A stretch of DNA of 64,000 bases from contig CACNXC010000003.1 of assembly GCA_902624315.1 (NCBI GenBank), positions 62,001 to 126,000 on the forward strand, written 5' to 3'. Below, in pieces: positions 54,024 through 60,461 of the stretch (positions are counted from its first letter, which is position 1; each line of letters starts with the position of its first letter). Under the pieces are notes generated by a model. That model ran no database searches. It was not told the DNA's origin and saw nothing but the letters and a program-made list of their open reading frames with translations. The position numbers and the translations under genes were made by a program. This DNA comes from an uncultured Pelagibacteraceae bacterium. GTDB lineage: Bacteria > Pseudomonadota > Alphaproteobacteria > Pelagibacterales > Pelagibacteraceae.

Positions 54024-54697
54024 TAAATCTTACCGAAATTTCGTTTTATGTTTTTATATTCTGTGATAATTTTATTATAATCTTTTTCATTAAAGGAAGG
54101 CCATAACTTTTTCTCAAAAAATATTTCAGAATAAGCGAGTTGCCACAATAAAAAATTGCTTAATCTTTTTGTATTGCCAGTTCTAATTAGTAAATCTGGA
54201 TCTGGAATATTTTTTGTTTGTAAATTTTTACTTAAATTTTTTTCATTGATATTATTTTTATTTTTTTTTATCTTTTTAAAAGCATTTATTAACTCAGATT
54301 TAGAGCCATAATTTAATGCAAGATTTATTTGTAACTTAGTATTTTTTGATGTTTTTTTTTCAGCATTATTTAAAAGCTTATTTAGTTTAGATGAAAATTT
54401 TTTTGACCCTAGAATTTTAAGTTTTATGTTTTGTTTATGCAGGTCTTCTATTCTATTAATTAAAAAATTCTCCAATAAATTAAACAGATAATTAACTTCT
54501 TTTTTAGGTCTTTTCCAATTTTCTGTTGAAAATGCAAATAATGTTAAAAAATTTATTTTATTTTTTATTGTTTCTTTTATGATTTTTTCAACAGTATTTA
54601 ACCCAGCTTTATGTCCAGAATTACGTGAATTTTTATATTTTAAACCCCATCTTCCATTACCATCCATGATAATGGCTACATGCTTTAATGGGTTCAT
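54023..54697 (-). CDS. uppS: Undecaprenyl diphosphate synthase
   Basis: A 224-residue cis-prenyltransferase. Motifs are AIIMDGNGRWG, GHKAGLNTVEK, TLFAFSTENWKRP, and the C-terminal PDPDLLIRTGNTKRLSNFLLW in two pieces. It makes the lipid carrier for peptidoglycan and polysaccharides. It overlaps the frr stop by four bases. Confidence 0.96.
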   Translation of the reverse strand: MNPLKHVAIIMDGNGRWGLKYKNSRNSGHKAGLNTVEKIIKETIKNKINFLTLFAFSTENWKRPKKEVNYLFNLLENFLINRIEDLHKQNIKLKILGSKKFSSKLNKLLNNAEKKTSKNTKLQINLALNYGSKSELINAFKKIKKNKNNINEKNLSKNLQTKNIPDPDLLIRTGNTKRLSNFLLWQLAYSEIFFEKKLWPSFNEKDYNKIITEYKNIKRNFGKI

Positions 54698-55245
54698 ATG
54701 GTCATTATTTCTTTTTCTTTTGAAGAGACTTTTTCATCAACAATTTGAATATGCTTATCAGTGATGTTTTGAACGTTTTTTTCAAAAGATTTTTCTTCAT
54801 CTTCACCAATTTCTTTTGATTTTAAAAGTTTTTTAAGTTCTTCGTTTGCATCTCTTCGAATATTTCGAATAGAAATTTTACATTTTTCACCCATAGATTT
54901 AATCAATTTTTTTAACTCGTTTCTTCTCTCTTCATTAAGTTCCGGTATTGGCAATCGAATTAATTGACCATCAATTTGTGGATTTAGTCCTAATTCAGAT
55001 TTTTTTATAGCTGCATCTACTAAAGGAACATTGTTTTGATCCCAAACCTGAACGTTTATCATTCTCGGTTCTGGTGTTGTTATACTTCCAATTTGATTGA
55101 TAGGCATTTGTTGTCCATAAACATCCACTCTAACAATATCTAACATTGCAGCATTCGCTCGACCAGTTCTTAATGACGATAACTCTTTTGAAAAAGCTTC
55201 TATAGATTTGTCCATTTTGAGGCTATGTGATTTTTCATCAAACAT
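54694..55245 (-). CDS. frr: Ribosome recycling factor
   Basis: A 183-residue RRF: a three-helix bundle with an inserted beta domain. Recognisable pieces are ELSSLRTGRANAAMLD, PEPRMINVQVWD and RRNELKKLIKSMGEKCKISIRNIRRDA in two segments. It dissociates post-termination ribosomes with EF-G. It abuts tsf directly; pyrH, normally between tsf and frr, is absent here. Confidence 0.97.
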   Translation of the reverse strand: MFDEKSHSLKMDKSIEAFSKELSSLRTGRANAAMLDIVRVDVYGQQMPINQIGSITTPEPRMINVQVWDQNNVPLVDAAIKKSELGLNPQIDGQLIRLPIPELNEERRNELKKLIKSMGEKCKISIRNIRRDANEELKKLLKSKEIGEDEEKSFEKNVQNITDKHIQIVDEKVSSKEKEIMTI

Positions 55246-56097
55246 TTATTCCCCTATTTTAATTCTGCTAAACTCCTTGATCTTTAAATCATTAATAGCA
55301 AGTTCTTTAAGAACATCCTGAACTTTTTTTTTTGGTTCCATAACCCAAGCTTGTGTTAAAAGAGCATTTTCCTCTTTAAATTTGTTCATCTTACCTAAAC
55401 TAATTTTTTTCGCAATCTCCTCCGGTTTTCCTGAATTTTTAAGTTCTTCAGTAACTAATTCTTGCTCTTTATCTATGATAGCTTTATCAATTAATTTAGA
55501 TTCTAAAGCTAAAGGGTTTGATGCTGCTATGTGCATAGACAATTGTTTTCCGAATGTTTTTACAACATCTGAATTATTTTTGGTTTCTAATGAAACTATC
55601 ACAGCTAATTTAGCTAAATTATCTTTAACCACAGTATGTAAATACTGATAATTTACTGAGGAAGAATTTGAAATTGTTTTTGTTTTTCCAATTGTAATTT
55701 TTTCTCCAATCTTAGCAATTAAAGCAACTAGATTTTCATCGACAGTAATATTATTCTTCATTTTAGATTTTTTTAATTTTTCAACATCTGAATTATTTTG
55801 ATTGTTTATTTCACTTAATTCTTTCACAAAATTTATGAAATCATCATTCTTAGCAACAAAATCTGTTTCACAATTTACCTCAATAATTGATGTCTTATTT
55901 TGATCTCCACTAACTGCTACAACTCCCTCTTTTGCATCTCTTGACATTTTTTTAGAGGCTTTTGAAATTCCTTTTACTCTTAAAATTTCAACAGCTTTAT
56001 CTAAATCACCTCCAGCTTCTTTAATTGCTAAATTACAATCTTTAAACCCAGCACCTGTTGCCTCTCTAAGTTTTTTTACTTTTTCTATATCGCTCAT
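55246..56097 (-). CDS. tsf: Elongation factor Ts
   Basis: A 283-residue EF-Ts, the nucleotide exchange factor of EF-Tu. The N-terminal UBA-like domain has [16 protein letters not shown] and the core carries the signature [11 protein letters not shown]. It starts on the base adjacent to the rpsB stop. Length is as expected. Confidence 0.97.
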
Positions 56098-56913
56098 TTA
56101 ATTCAGTGTTTCAGGCTTTTTTTTAGAAAATTTTTTTTCCAGTTTTTCCCGGTCTGTTTCAGCAACTGTTTTAGATTTATCAACTTTTTCTTTTTTCTCG
56201 GTATCTTTTTTTGTTTCAATAACAGGTGCAGTTTTTTTAGCACCTATAATTGTTTCTTTAATAAGATTACAATATAGATCTATAGATCTTCGAGCATCAT
56301 CATTTCCAGGTATAGGAAAATCAATACCATCTGGATTTGAATTGCTATCTAAAATTGCAATGATTGGAATTCCTAATTTTACTGACTCCTGAATTGCAAG
56401 TGACTCGTAATTTGTATCAATAATAAATACTAAATCAGGAACTTTTTTCATTTCAGCTATTCCTCCGAGTGATCTTTGTAATTTATCTTTTTTTACACTC
56501 ATTTTTAAAAGTTCTTTTTTTGTAAATCCTCTATTTTCAGCAACCAAATCTGTCTCTAATTTTTTCAATTTTTTAATTGAATTTGAAATGGTGCCCCAAT
56601 TTGTAAGCATTCCACCTAACCATCTATAATTAACGAAATATTGATCTGTTTCTTTTGCTACTTCAGCGATTGCTTCGGAAGCTTGTTTTTTAGTTGATAC
56701 AAACAAGATTTTTCCATTATTTGAAATAGTCTCGTAAACTTTTTCTAAAGCAATTTTGGTTAATTCTAAAGTTTGAGTAAGGTCGATAATATGAATACTA
56801 TCTCTTTTTCCAAATATATATTTCTTCATTTTAGGATTCCATCTTAAAGTTTTATGTCCAAGATGTACTCCAGCTTCCAATAGTTGTTGAATAGTAACGT
56901 TTGGTATCTTCAT
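56098..56913 (-). CDS. rpsB: 30S ribosomal protein S2
   Basis: A 271-residue S2 protein. Recognisable are [19 protein letters not shown] near the start, [12 protein letters not shown], and PDLVFIID plus [18 protein letters not shown]. The C-terminal 40 residues form a Lys/Glu-rich tail. Its leader is a pseudoknot-like RNA whose 3' strand covers the ribosome-binding bases GGGA, implying feedback control. Confidence 0.97.
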
Positions 56914-56921
56914 ATTTTTTC

Positions 56922-56983
56922 CCGGTTAAGCCACCACAGTTATTTCCAATTAAGGACCGGAGGTTTAAAACCAACAAACTGTG
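56922..56983 (-). ncRNA. rpsB (S2) leader: pseudoknot-like autoregulatory RNA
   Basis: In the rpsB sense, CACAGTT (56983-56977) pairs with AACTGTG (56941-56935). Inside lie a short GGT/ACC hairpin (56972-56962) and CCGGT (56960-56956). CCGGT pairs with ACCGG (56926-56922), outside the first stem, giving an H-type pseudoknot. The 3' strand ends in the GGGA ribosome site, nine bases before the ATG. Position and form agree with an S2 autoregulatory leader; pairing was done by eye. Confidence 0.7.
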
Positions 56984-57008
56984 TGCGTGTTAATTTAAAA
57001 TTGAAGAT

Positions 57009-57037
57009 TATTTACAAAGAAATTTTGAATTAGACAA
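57009..57037 (-). promoter_or_regulatory. Weak candidate promoter of rpsB
   Basis: On the minus strand TTGTCT (57037-57032) and TAAATA (57014-57009) are 17 bases apart in the dnaE-rpsB gap, placing the RNA start near 57002, just before the pseudoknot leader. The -10 match is poor. No terminator was seen after dnaE, so readthrough is also possible. Confidence 0.35.
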
Positions 57038-57044
57038 GCCTTAA

Positions 57045-60000
57045 TTATCCAATTATTGCTGAAATTTCCTTATTTCTTAAAATATTTATTGTTTTTCTGT
57101 CAATATTTCTCTTATTTTTTAAATAAAACTTTAAATCATTTTTATTGTCGCTGATATTAATCTTTATCAATGTGTTTCCGTGTTGAGGCAAATATCTTGA
57201 TACCTCATCTAGTTCTTTTGTGGATTTTAAATTAAATGTAACTTCCAGAATTGGTCTATTTAACAAATCCTTTAAAGAAACAATTTTTTGAACATTTAAT
57301 CTTTTAAATCTATTTTCTGAGTCTGATGAGGATTTAAACAAAGTCAAAATAAAAGAATTTCCTTCTTTTAAAATTTCTCGATTTAATTCCAATGTGTCTG
57401 AAAAAACAAACAACTCAAAAACACTAGATAAATCAGTTAGCTTTAAAACTGCATAAGGATTACCTTTTGCAGTTTTTCTCTCTTGTATTTTAAGTAATGT
57501 TGCAGCTATATTTGATTCCTTTAGATCGTCTTGGCTATTAAATTTTTGATAATCATAAATATTATAATCATCAAAAACATCTTTAAACTGGTTTAATGGA
57601 TGATCTGAAATAAAAAAACCTACTGCTTCAAACTCTTTGGACAATCTTTCCTCGAACTTCCAGTCATCGATATTAATAGTTATGTCATCTTCTTCATTAG
57701 CGTTTTCACCAAATAAATCTATTTGATTAGCAGATTTATTTTCAAAAATATTTTTGGATTTTGTAATAAATTTGGGAATAGAATTAAATAGAGATTGTCT
57801 ATTAATATTTAAATTATCAAAAGCCCCTGCTTTAACAAGTCCCTCTAGTTGCAATTTGTTAATATCTTTTGGATTTACACGCTTCAAAAAGTCTTTAATT
57901 GATTTAAATGGTCCATTTTTTGTTCTTTCTTGAACTATATTAGAGACAGCTTCATAGCCCACAGCTTTAATACCACCTAAAGCATAATAAAATTTCTCAT
58001 TTTCGGCTCTAAAATCTGCAAAACATTGATTTATATCTGGTCTAACAATTTCAATATTCAATCTTTTAAGCTCTTCATAAAATTCACTAAGTTTATTTTG
58101 ATTGGATATATCCATAGTCATCGAGGCAGCAATAAATTCTTTTGGATAATAAGTTTTCAAATATGCTGTTTGATAAGATATAATCGCATATGCAGCAGCA
58201 TGACTCTTATTGAATCCATATTCCGCAAAAGGTTCTATTTTCAAAAAAATTCCAGCTGCCACCTCTTTACTAATTCCATTTTTGACAGCACCTGCAATAA
58301 AATTTTGTTTTTGTTTTTCAAGCTCAGATCTTTTTTTCTTTCCCATCGCTCTTCTTAAAATATCTGCCTGACCAGCAGTAAAACCTGACAATTTCTGCGC
58401 AATCTGCATTACCTGTTCTTGATATATAATTACCCCGTAGGTTGGTTTTAAAATATCTTCTAATAAAGGGTGTAAATAATCTGGCTCTTGTTTGCCATGC
58501 TTACAATCATTATAAGTTGGGATATTACTCATTGGACCTGGTCTATACAAAGCAACTAATGCAATAATATCCTCAATATGATTTGGCTTCATTTGAGTTA
58601 ACGCTTCTCTCATTCCAGAACTTTCAATTTGAAATAAGCCAACTGTATTACCCGAAGATAACATTTCGAAAACTTTTTTATCTTCGTAGTTAATATTCTC
58701 AATATTAAAATCTTTTTCTTTTTTTTTTATTAACTTTTGAGTGTTATTTATTACTGTTAATGTTTTTAATCCTAAAAAATCAAATTTAATTAACCCTGCA
58801 TCTTCAGCTGAATACATATCAAATTGAGTTGAGGGAAGTAATAAATCAGTCGTAGCATCTTTATATAAAGGAACAACTTCCTGTAATTTTCTATCAGCTA
58901 TAACAACACCTGCGGCGTGAGTTGCAACATTTCTGTTCAATCCTTCTAATTTTAAAGAGAGTTCTGTAAGTTTTTTAACTCTTGGATCATCTTTAATTAA
59001 TTTTTGAAGTCTTGGCTCCCCGGCAATACATTCCGTTAAATTTTGAGGTCTTGATGGATCAAAAGGGATCATTTTGGATATACTATCAACAAAACCATAG
59101 GATAACCCTAATACTCTTCCAACATCTCTAATAACCATTCTGGCTTTTAATTTTCCAAAAGTAATTATATGAGCAACACTATCCTTATATTTTTCAGTTA
59201 AATATTCAAAAACTAGGTCTCTTTTTTCCTCACAAAAATCAATATCAAAATCTGGCATTGAAATACGATCGGGATTTAAAAATCTTTCAAAAATAAGATT
59301 AAATTTTATTGGGTCAACATCTGTAATTAAAAGACACCATGCTACTAAAGAACCTGCACCAGATCCCCTTCCAGGCCCTACTGGGATATCATTCTTTTTT
59401 GCCCATATAATATAATCAGAAACAATTAAGAAATAACTGGAATATTTCATTTGTATAATAATATCAAGTTCATGATCTAATCTATCTTTGTAAAGTAAAA
59501 ATTTTTCATTTTTAGAAAGATCCTCACCCTGTATTTTAAAAATATTTTTGAATTTATCTTTTAATCCATCCAAAGAGTTTTTTTTTAATATCTCATCGGC
59601 ATTTCCACCTTTATCTGAACTTATGTCAGGTAATATGGGCTTTGAAAAATGTGGTCGAAAATTACAACGATACGGGAAATTATAGTTATTTTCTAACGCT
59701 TCAGGTAAATCAGAAAATAATTCTGACATCTCAGAATTATCTTTAAGATAGTGTTGATTTGAGTATTTAATTCTATTTTTGTCATTTACATAAGTTTTGT
59801 TTTTAATACAAATTAATGCATCATGAGCCTCATACATGTCTTTGTTTGAGTAAAAAACTTCATTGGTAGCTATTATTGATATTTCTAACTTTAAAGACTG
59901 CGAAAGGTTAAACTTTTCAAATGAAATTTCATTTTGATCTCCATGACGTTGAATTTCTATATAAAATTTATCACCATATTTTTGTTTGAGTTTAGAGTAT

Positions 60001-60461
60001 AATTTTTCAATTTCTGAAAATTTTCCTTTATTGAATAATTGACCGACTAACCCATTTATTGTTCCTGAAAAAATGGCAACCCCTTCATTATTCTTTAACA
60101 ATTCCTCAAAATTTAAATGTGGATCCAAGGTTTCATCGTTATTAAGATATGATAACGAAGATAATTCAATTATTCTTTTATATCCAATTTCATTCAATGC
60201 GAATAATGGCAATAAACCAATAGTATCATCTAATTTAAAATTGATCTGAGTACCAATAATTGGTTGGGTTCCAACTTTAGATATTTTTTCGGCAAATTCT
60301 AGGGCACCACATAAATTCGATGTATCACATAAAGCTAGAGATCTAATTTTCTTTTCTTTAGATATTTCTTTTAAGTCATCAATTTTAATCGCTCCTTCAC
60401 ATATTGAAAATTGAGAATGTATTTTTAAATGATTAAAGTTTTGAATTTGAGACTCAGCCAT
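57045..60461 (-). CDS. dnaE: DNA polymerase III alpha subunit
   Basis: A 1138-residue replicative polymerase. It comprises an N-terminal PHP domain (HLKIHSQFSICEGA), the palm with the catalytic aspartates in MPDFDIDFCEEKR, the FGKLKARMVIRDVGRVLG and HAAGVVIAD stretches, the fingers (YRPGPMSNIPTY, RRAMGKKKRSE, YGFNKSHAAAYA), helix-hairpin-helix and OB (ATLLKIQERKTAKGNPYAVL) regions. Length is close to E. coli DnaE. It overlaps the lolD stop by eight bases. Confidence 0.97.
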   Translation of the reverse strand: MAESQIQNFNHLKIHSQFSICEGAIKIDDLKEISKEKKIRSLALCDTSNLCGALEFAEKISKVGTQPIIGTQINFKLDDTIGLLPLFALNEIGYKRIIELSSLSYLNNDETLDPHLNFEELLKNNEGVAIFSGTINGLVGQLFNKGKFSEIEKLYSKLKQKYGDKFYIEIQRHGDQNEISFEKFNLSQSLKLEISIIATNEVFYSNKDMYEAHDALICIKNKTYVNDKNRIKYSNQHYLKDNSEMSELFSDLPEALENNYNFPYRCNFRPHFSKPILPDISSDKGGNADEILKKNSLDGLKDKFKNIFKIQGEDLSKNEKFLLYKDRLDHELDIIIQMKYSSYFLIVSDYIIWAKKNDIPVGPGRGSGAGSLVAWCLLITDVDPIKFNLIFERFLNPDRISMPDFDIDFCEEKRDLVFEYLTEKYKDSVAHIITFGKLKARMVIRDVGRVLGLSYGFVDSISKMIPFDPSRPQNLTECIAGEPRLQKLIKDDPRVKKLTELSLKLEGLNRNVATHAAGVVIADRKLQEVVPLYKDATTDLLLPSTQFDMYSAEDAGLIKFDFLGLKTLTVINNTQKLIKKKEKDFNIENINYEDKKVFEMLSSGNTVGLFQIESSGMREALTQMKPNHIEDIIALVALYRPGPMSNIPTYNDCKHGKQEPDYLHPLLEDILKPTYGVIIYQEQVMQIAQKLSGFTAGQADILRRAMGKKKRSELEKQKQNFIAGAVKNGISKEVAAGIFLKIEPFAEYGFNKSHAAAYAIISYQTAYLKTYYPKEFIAASMTMDISNQNKLSEFYEELKRLNIEIVRPDINQCFADFRAENEKFYYALGGIKAVGYEAVSNIVQERTKNGPFKSIKDFLKRVNPKDINKLQLEGLVKAGAFDNLNINRQSLFNSIPKFITKSKNIFENKSANQIDLFGENANEEDDITINIDDWKFEERLSKEFEAVGFFISDHPLNQFKDVFDDYNIYDYQKFNSQDDLKESNIAATLLKIQERKTAKGNPYAVLKLTDLSSVFELFVFSDTLELNREILKEGNSFILTLFKSSSDSENRFKRLNVQKIVSLKDLLNRPILEVTFNLKSTKELDEVSRYLPQHGNTLIKINISDNKNDLKFYLKNKRNIDRKTINILRNKEISAIIG

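Follow-up and report, generated by a model that had tools for sequence, protein, structure and literature searches.

Does the gap between dnaE and rpsB in a SAR11 genome encode an RNA that could control the synthesis of ribosomal protein S2, and is that RNA new? The window analyzed here, a 64,000-nt stretch of DNA from an uncultured Pelagibacteraceae bacterium, holds both genes on its minus strand. The original prediction claimed that the helices CACAGTT/AACTGTG and CCGGT/ACCGG form an H-type pseudoknot in this gap, that the second pseudoknot strand runs into the ribosome-binding site, and that the element may be an alphaproteobacterial or SAR11 version of the S2 leader, possibly controlling rpsB-tsf and genes downstream. 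We confirm the observation: both helices are present as described, ahead of rpsB on the minus strand, and the first two G of the GGGA at the ribosome site lie within ACCGG. The interpretation is partly supported. The element is the known rpsB (S2) leader of SAR11, as indicated by an Rfam match and by covariation; an unreported SAR11 version, or any new SAR11-only element, was rejected because the motif was published from 'Candidatus Pelagibacter ubique' itself in 2009 (Meyer et al., PMC2704228). The original prediction described a real element well, but the element is not new. Its Shine–Dalgarno (SD)-in-pseudoknot layout is a modest, testable addition to what is known.

Locus and gene order

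The gap and its neighbors comprise the following features.

57045-60461, minus strand: dnaE (ORF list and NCBIfam)
56914..57044, minus strand: dnaE-rpsB intergenic leader region, 131 nt (ORF ends; dnaE and rpsB named by NCBIfam)
57009..57037, minus strand: promoter-like TTGTCT-17 nt-TAAATA, with TTTG just before TAAATA; conserved in the genus; TTTGTAAATA box
56098..56913, minus strand: rpsB, ribosomal protein S2 (TIGR01011), with its ATG at 56913
55246..56097, minus strand: tsf, elongation factor Ts (TIGR00116), directly adjoining rpsB

No bases separate the rpsB stop codon from the tsf start, and the gene order after rpsB runs without gaps through tsf, frr, uppS, a cdsA-like gene and a dxr-like gene (ORF ends, NCBIfam), the last two with family matches below curated cut-offs. 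As in Escherichia coli, rpsB is followed by tsf, and their direct adjacency makes the two genes a putative single unit.

In this genome tsf adjoins frr with no pyrH between them (window 54694-56097). In all seven sister-family and other alphaproteobacterial genomes examined, a UMP kinase gene (pyrH) follows rpsB on the same strand at a distance of 0.9 to 1.4 kb. No pyrH match over the cut-off was found in the window genome or in any of 11 single-contig Pelagibacteraceae genomes, and none of the titles retrieved from the open-access library searched concerned the making of UDP from UMP in Pelagibacter. The weak pyrH matches of these genomes sit in frames of 369 to 425 aa (one of 282), which are probably aspartate and glutamate kinases.

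Identity of the leader

The covariance-model search against known leaders that had been proposed with the original prediction matched the rpsB motif over its whole model, directly upstream of the rpsB start.

56904..56987, minus strand: rpsB motif RF01815, model positions 1-132, 35.5 bits, E 8.6e-6, gathering score 40

No other place in the genome matches RF01815 at E 0.001 or better, and the score of this match lies below the gathering score. The same holds throughout the family. None of the 197 Pelagibacteraceae genomes sampled passes the current Rfam cut-off; at E 0.001 or better 119 of them match, leaving 78 without a match, but the search filters discard weak matches and the genomes are partly incomplete. 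Among other alphaproteobacterial leaders 8 of 20 pass the gathering score and 12 do not, and one of the 20 sister-family leaders reaches E 0.01. It is likely that the cut-off, and not the element, is at fault for the sub-threshold scores in Pelagibacteraceae.

Two other known elements were compared with the leader. The t44 RNA, RF00127, the enterobacterial rpsB leader, aligned over its full model at 25.9 bits (E 0.0011; gathering score of 44 not reached), with CACAC...GUGG and UUAAC blocks common to both; unlike the leader, the t44 model stops at UUAAC and has no pseudoknot strand beyond. A riboswitch like SAM-V of SAR11 (RF01826) was rejected, as the Rfam scans gave no SAM-V match at this place. 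SAM-V also differs in its genes, since it precedes methionine genes in the available passages of Meyer et al. (PMC2704228).

According to those passages, the rpsB motif of 'Ca. P. ubique' occupies 873155-873283, between dnaE and rpsB; P1, P2, P3 and the pseudoknot are already described there, with three P2 pairs and two P3 pairs (PMC2704228). The gene, the gap, P1/P2/P3 and the J2-3 pseudoknot are the same in our leader, and no structural difference from the published description was seen. The motif precedes rpsB in nearly all examples, in several bacterial groups, and a few examples precede the Ts gene (PMC2704228, available passages). By coordinate fit, one genome of the window's genus is very likely the strain of that description, HTCC1062: its RpsB match starts at 873284, and its own rpsB element scores 33.3 bits. 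The present result confirms the published leader in one more genome of SAR11, which are among the most abundant organisms in the sea.

Structure of the leader RNA

In the leader fold, P1 closes a junction that contains a short P2 and a P3 of two pairs. Five further pairs make up the pseudoknot, in which CCGGU, the joiner between P2 and P3, pairs with ACCGG 3′ of P1. P1 has 10 pairs with one bulged base, the three outer pairs counted. A plain H-type pseudoknot, as first proposed, was rejected because P2 and P3 sit inside; the pseudoknot itself stands, as part of a junction with P1, P2 and P3.

56985..56987, minus strand: P1 outer 5′ arm CGC, pairing with 56932-56934 (Rfam structure line)
56977..56983, minus strand: P1 5′ arm CACAGTT (sequence and family alignment)
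56962..56972, minus strand: P2 hairpin GGTT-TTA-AACC (predicted fold); its two inner pairs are poorly conserved and fit about half of the cells (52.4%) in the family alignment
56956..56960, minus strand: pseudoknot 5′ strand CCGGT, the P2-P3 joiner (sequence and class alignment)
56946..56955, minus strand: P3 hairpin, CC/GG, two base pairs, 93.2% of cells paired
56935..56941, minus strand: P1 3′ arm AACTGTG (sequence and family alignment)
56932..56934, minus strand: P1 outer 3′ arm GTG (sequence pairing)
56922..56926, minus strand: pseudoknot 3′ strand ACCGG (sequence and class alignment)
56920..56923, minus strand: GGGA, likely ribosome-binding site, first two G shared with ACCGG (duplex with the 16S tail)

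Leaders sampled

Leaders were chosen for spread and not at random. The window's genus is represented by 68 leaders, from those RpsB matches with the best scores that were kept as loci, and this set therefore leans toward close relatives. For the sister family, 20 of 32 matching genomes were taken, and for the other genera of the family, 21 of 71 (20 chosen, plus L099). The class search matched 143 of 144 genomes and supplied 28 automatic and 40 chosen leaders. No prevalence count includes the 30 leaders obtained by covariance model (L001, L032-L060). L157, which has an apparent TTG start and fits the pattern, was kept out of the alignment and of the spacing counts. In neither L121 nor L203 could a pseudoknot strand be recognized for the spacing count, and L121 is gapped in the class table. 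In the alphaproteobacterial leader L121, about 80 nt, with an A/T-rich stretch among them, separate the block GCAGAGGTTTAACTGG from the rpsB ATG downstream.

Conservation and covariation

The evidence from one sequence alone is weak. The folding energy of the leader is ordinary relative to shuffles (z 0.16, and -0.01 in a second run) and was rejected as evidence for that reason. Some Watson–Crick pseudoknot of 7+5 bp occurs in 994 of 2000 dinucleotide shuffles of the 131-nt leader; if the shuffles must also match the two real helices in G+C content, a criterion chosen once the helices had been seen, one occurs in 1 of 5000.

We aligned 73 distinct Pelagibacteraceae leaders (from 88), found via the RpsB protein, using MAFFT, and counted P1 pairs in this family alignment only. 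P1 shows two-sided changes at 6 of its 10 pairs; the innermost pair is unpaired in 32 of the 73 rows. Over the whole structure, 91.5% of cells are paired, versus 87.7% when shuffled and at most 50.5% when slid, and further pair types did not exceed those of shuffles, 91 of 500 of which were as high. RNAalifold, which cannot predict a pseudoknot, returned six P1 pairs from this alignment and a two-pair local stem that joins two bases of ACCGG to the GG next to P1. The pseudoknot strands are nearly invariant in the family, with 97.8% of cells paired and no two-sided change in the 73 rows. Seven of the eight unpaired pseudoknot cells come from three rows shifted by MAFFT (L159, L163, L166), and in L167 the outer pair is truly lost.

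Across the class, the pseudoknot is paired in 330 of 335 cells in 67 rows, a value reached by 0 of 10,000 shuffles, which ignore relatedness. With all cells that hold letters, 333 of 338 are paired, versus at most 194 of 338 when the partner strand is slid, which keeps relatedness. Two-sided changes that preserve pairing occur in 8 of the 67 rows, from seven families, with variants such as CTGGT/ACCAG, CCAGT/ACTGG and TTCGT/ACGAG. L168 and L204 were counted as partly unpaired in the class table and read by eye as CCAGT/ACTGG and TCGGT/ACCGA, respectively; pairing in L203 is truly poor. The original prediction had named a lack of compensatory changes in the two stems as the outcome that would speak against it. 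Such changes are present in P1; for the pseudoknot they are lacking within the family and present in the class. Judged from these alignments, conservation and covariation show that the element is real.

Position of the pseudoknot relative to the ribosome-binding site

The 3′ strand of the pseudoknot lies close to the start codon throughout SAR11. The distance from the end of this strand to the ATG is 8 to 9 nt in all 68 leaders of the window's genus, 6 to 12 nt in all 20 from the family's other genera and 8 to 10 nt in all 20 from the sister family; its median in other Alphaproteobacteria is 17 nt. A distance of 12 nt or less was found in 108 of 108 Pelagibacterales leaders versus 5 of 66 other alphaproteobacterial leaders. 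We defined a separate SD core as AGGA, GGAG or GAGG after the pseudoknot. By this definition one is present in 58 of the 66 other alphaproteobacterial leaders, in none of 68 leaders in the window's genus, in 3 of 20 in other genera and in none of 20 in the sister family, and it is absent after the pseudoknot strand in 105 of 108 Pelagibacterales leaders. Of the 21 leaders sampled from the family's other genera, L099, L149 and L152 have a separate AGGA, and L164 and L167 lack GGA at the ribosome-site position. The compact layout is the rule in SAR11 but is not unique to SAR11. Given a pseudoknot strand near the ATG and no separate SD core, direct occlusion of the ribosome site is plausible in SAR11.

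A ribosome-binding site outside the operator structure, as in E. coli, is not found here: GGGA shares two G with the pseudoknot. Its best duplex with the 16S tail has an energy of -4.3 kcal/mol, versus a median of -0.35 for the 54 ORFs of the window. The 16S tail of this genome reads ATTACCTCCTTT, and the usual CCTCCTTT is present. A four-base SD core precedes 6 of the 54 ORFs, with starts taken as the first ATG; because so few genes of the window carry one, SD occlusion may matter less here. As a separate observation, the 3′ end of the 16S rRNA of this genome is GGATTACCTCCTTT, with T at one position where the usual GGATCACC has C.

The overlap of SD and pseudoknot in the SAR11 rpsB leader is not mentioned in the available passages of Meyer et al. 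(PMC2704228) or in those of PMC7247131, and no title retrieved from the open-access library searched refers to it. Loss of the separate ribosome site offers a natural comparison between an operator that lies beside the ribosome site and one that covers it. CCGGU could alternatively pair with AUUGG in P3 in 33 of the 68 leaders of the genus and in 0 of 109 others counted; on these counts it was rejected as a general feature, and it is possible that this alternative pairing represents an open state.

Proposed regulation of rpsB translation

We consider it probable that the element is an S2-responsive leader in its SAR11 form, through which free S2 would hold down rpsB translation. This judgment applies to an S2-responsive leader as such; the recognition-only reading weighed below is a variant within it, and the weights we assign are not meant to sum to one. 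In E. coli, uS2 with the help of bS1 represses rpsB-tsf via the leader; the SD sequence and start codon lie outside the operator, and the details of the mechanism are described as unclear (2024 review, PMC10931766, available passages). In SAR11, the rpsB mRNA would start slightly upstream of P1, presumably from its own promoter. P1, P2 and P3 would fold, and the CCGGU joiner would pair with ACCGG close ahead of the start codon. S2 in excess, perhaps together with S1, would bind and stabilize this fold, by extension from E. coli. Because ACCGG shares two G with the only SD-like stretch, the 30S subunit would have no access to rpsB while the pseudoknot is closed, and coupling would then lower tsf as well. 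We infer S2 as the ligand, and likewise the repression and its size.

More tentatively, the separate SD may have been lost in SAR11 and the pseudoknot's 3′ strand may have taken over its role, with closing alone hiding the ribosome site as an on-off switch; we hold this possible at less than even weight. Such occlusion is not the general mechanism of the RNA family, because the SD and start codon of E. coli are outside the operator. The pseudoknot may instead be a feature for S2 recognition only, with the SD not occluded and the short SAR11 spacing a product of genome compaction, which is conceivable and which we would not favor outright. The E. coli ribosome-binding site outside the operator agrees with it (PMC10931766, available passages), as does the finding that most other Alphaproteobacteria keep a separate SD yet conserve the pseudoknot; since they keep it, its conserved role cannot be SD occlusion. 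Compaction alone, however, need not remove a separate SD, and the window's genus and the sister family, in 88 of 88 leaders, lack a separate SD and have ACCGG 8 to 10 nt from the ATG.

It appears improbable that the strands are conserved for a role in translation or mRNA stability independent of S2 feedback, such as that of a loading site for S1 or the 30S subunit. The help that bS1 gives to repression in E. coli fits a loading site (PMC10931766), but the near-constant position of the motif ahead of rpsB in several groups (PMC2704228) and the repression by E. coli S2 of its own leader (PMC10931766) argue against it, in the available passages of both sources. Chance pairing or functionless remnants would suit the ordinary folding of the single sequence and the loose shuffles that match half the time; they are contradicted by the compensated P1 pairs in the family and the compensated pseudoknot pairs in the class, and we regard them as extremely improbable.

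Candidate promoter and a stray contig

In the genus, 56 of the 68 leaders are preceded by a TTG box and, 16 or 17 nt further on, a TA box (TAAATA in 44) with TG before it; the boxes stand 88 to 96 nt from the ATG in all but one of the 56. A general sigma-70 scan gave one site, against a mean of 1.7 in shuffles, and the conserved TTG/TA box was absent from its output. The conserved boxes form a candidate promoter and suggest that transcription of rpsB may begin at a site of its own beside P1, within the dnaE-rpsB gap.

The pattern scan of viral contigs gave a single match, in an IMG/VR contig (L211, 1-5587). It fuses ORFs that look phage-like by eye to a SAR11-like dnaE, of which it has the 3′ half, together with the S2 leader and the beginning of rpsB, and is probably a chimeric assembly.
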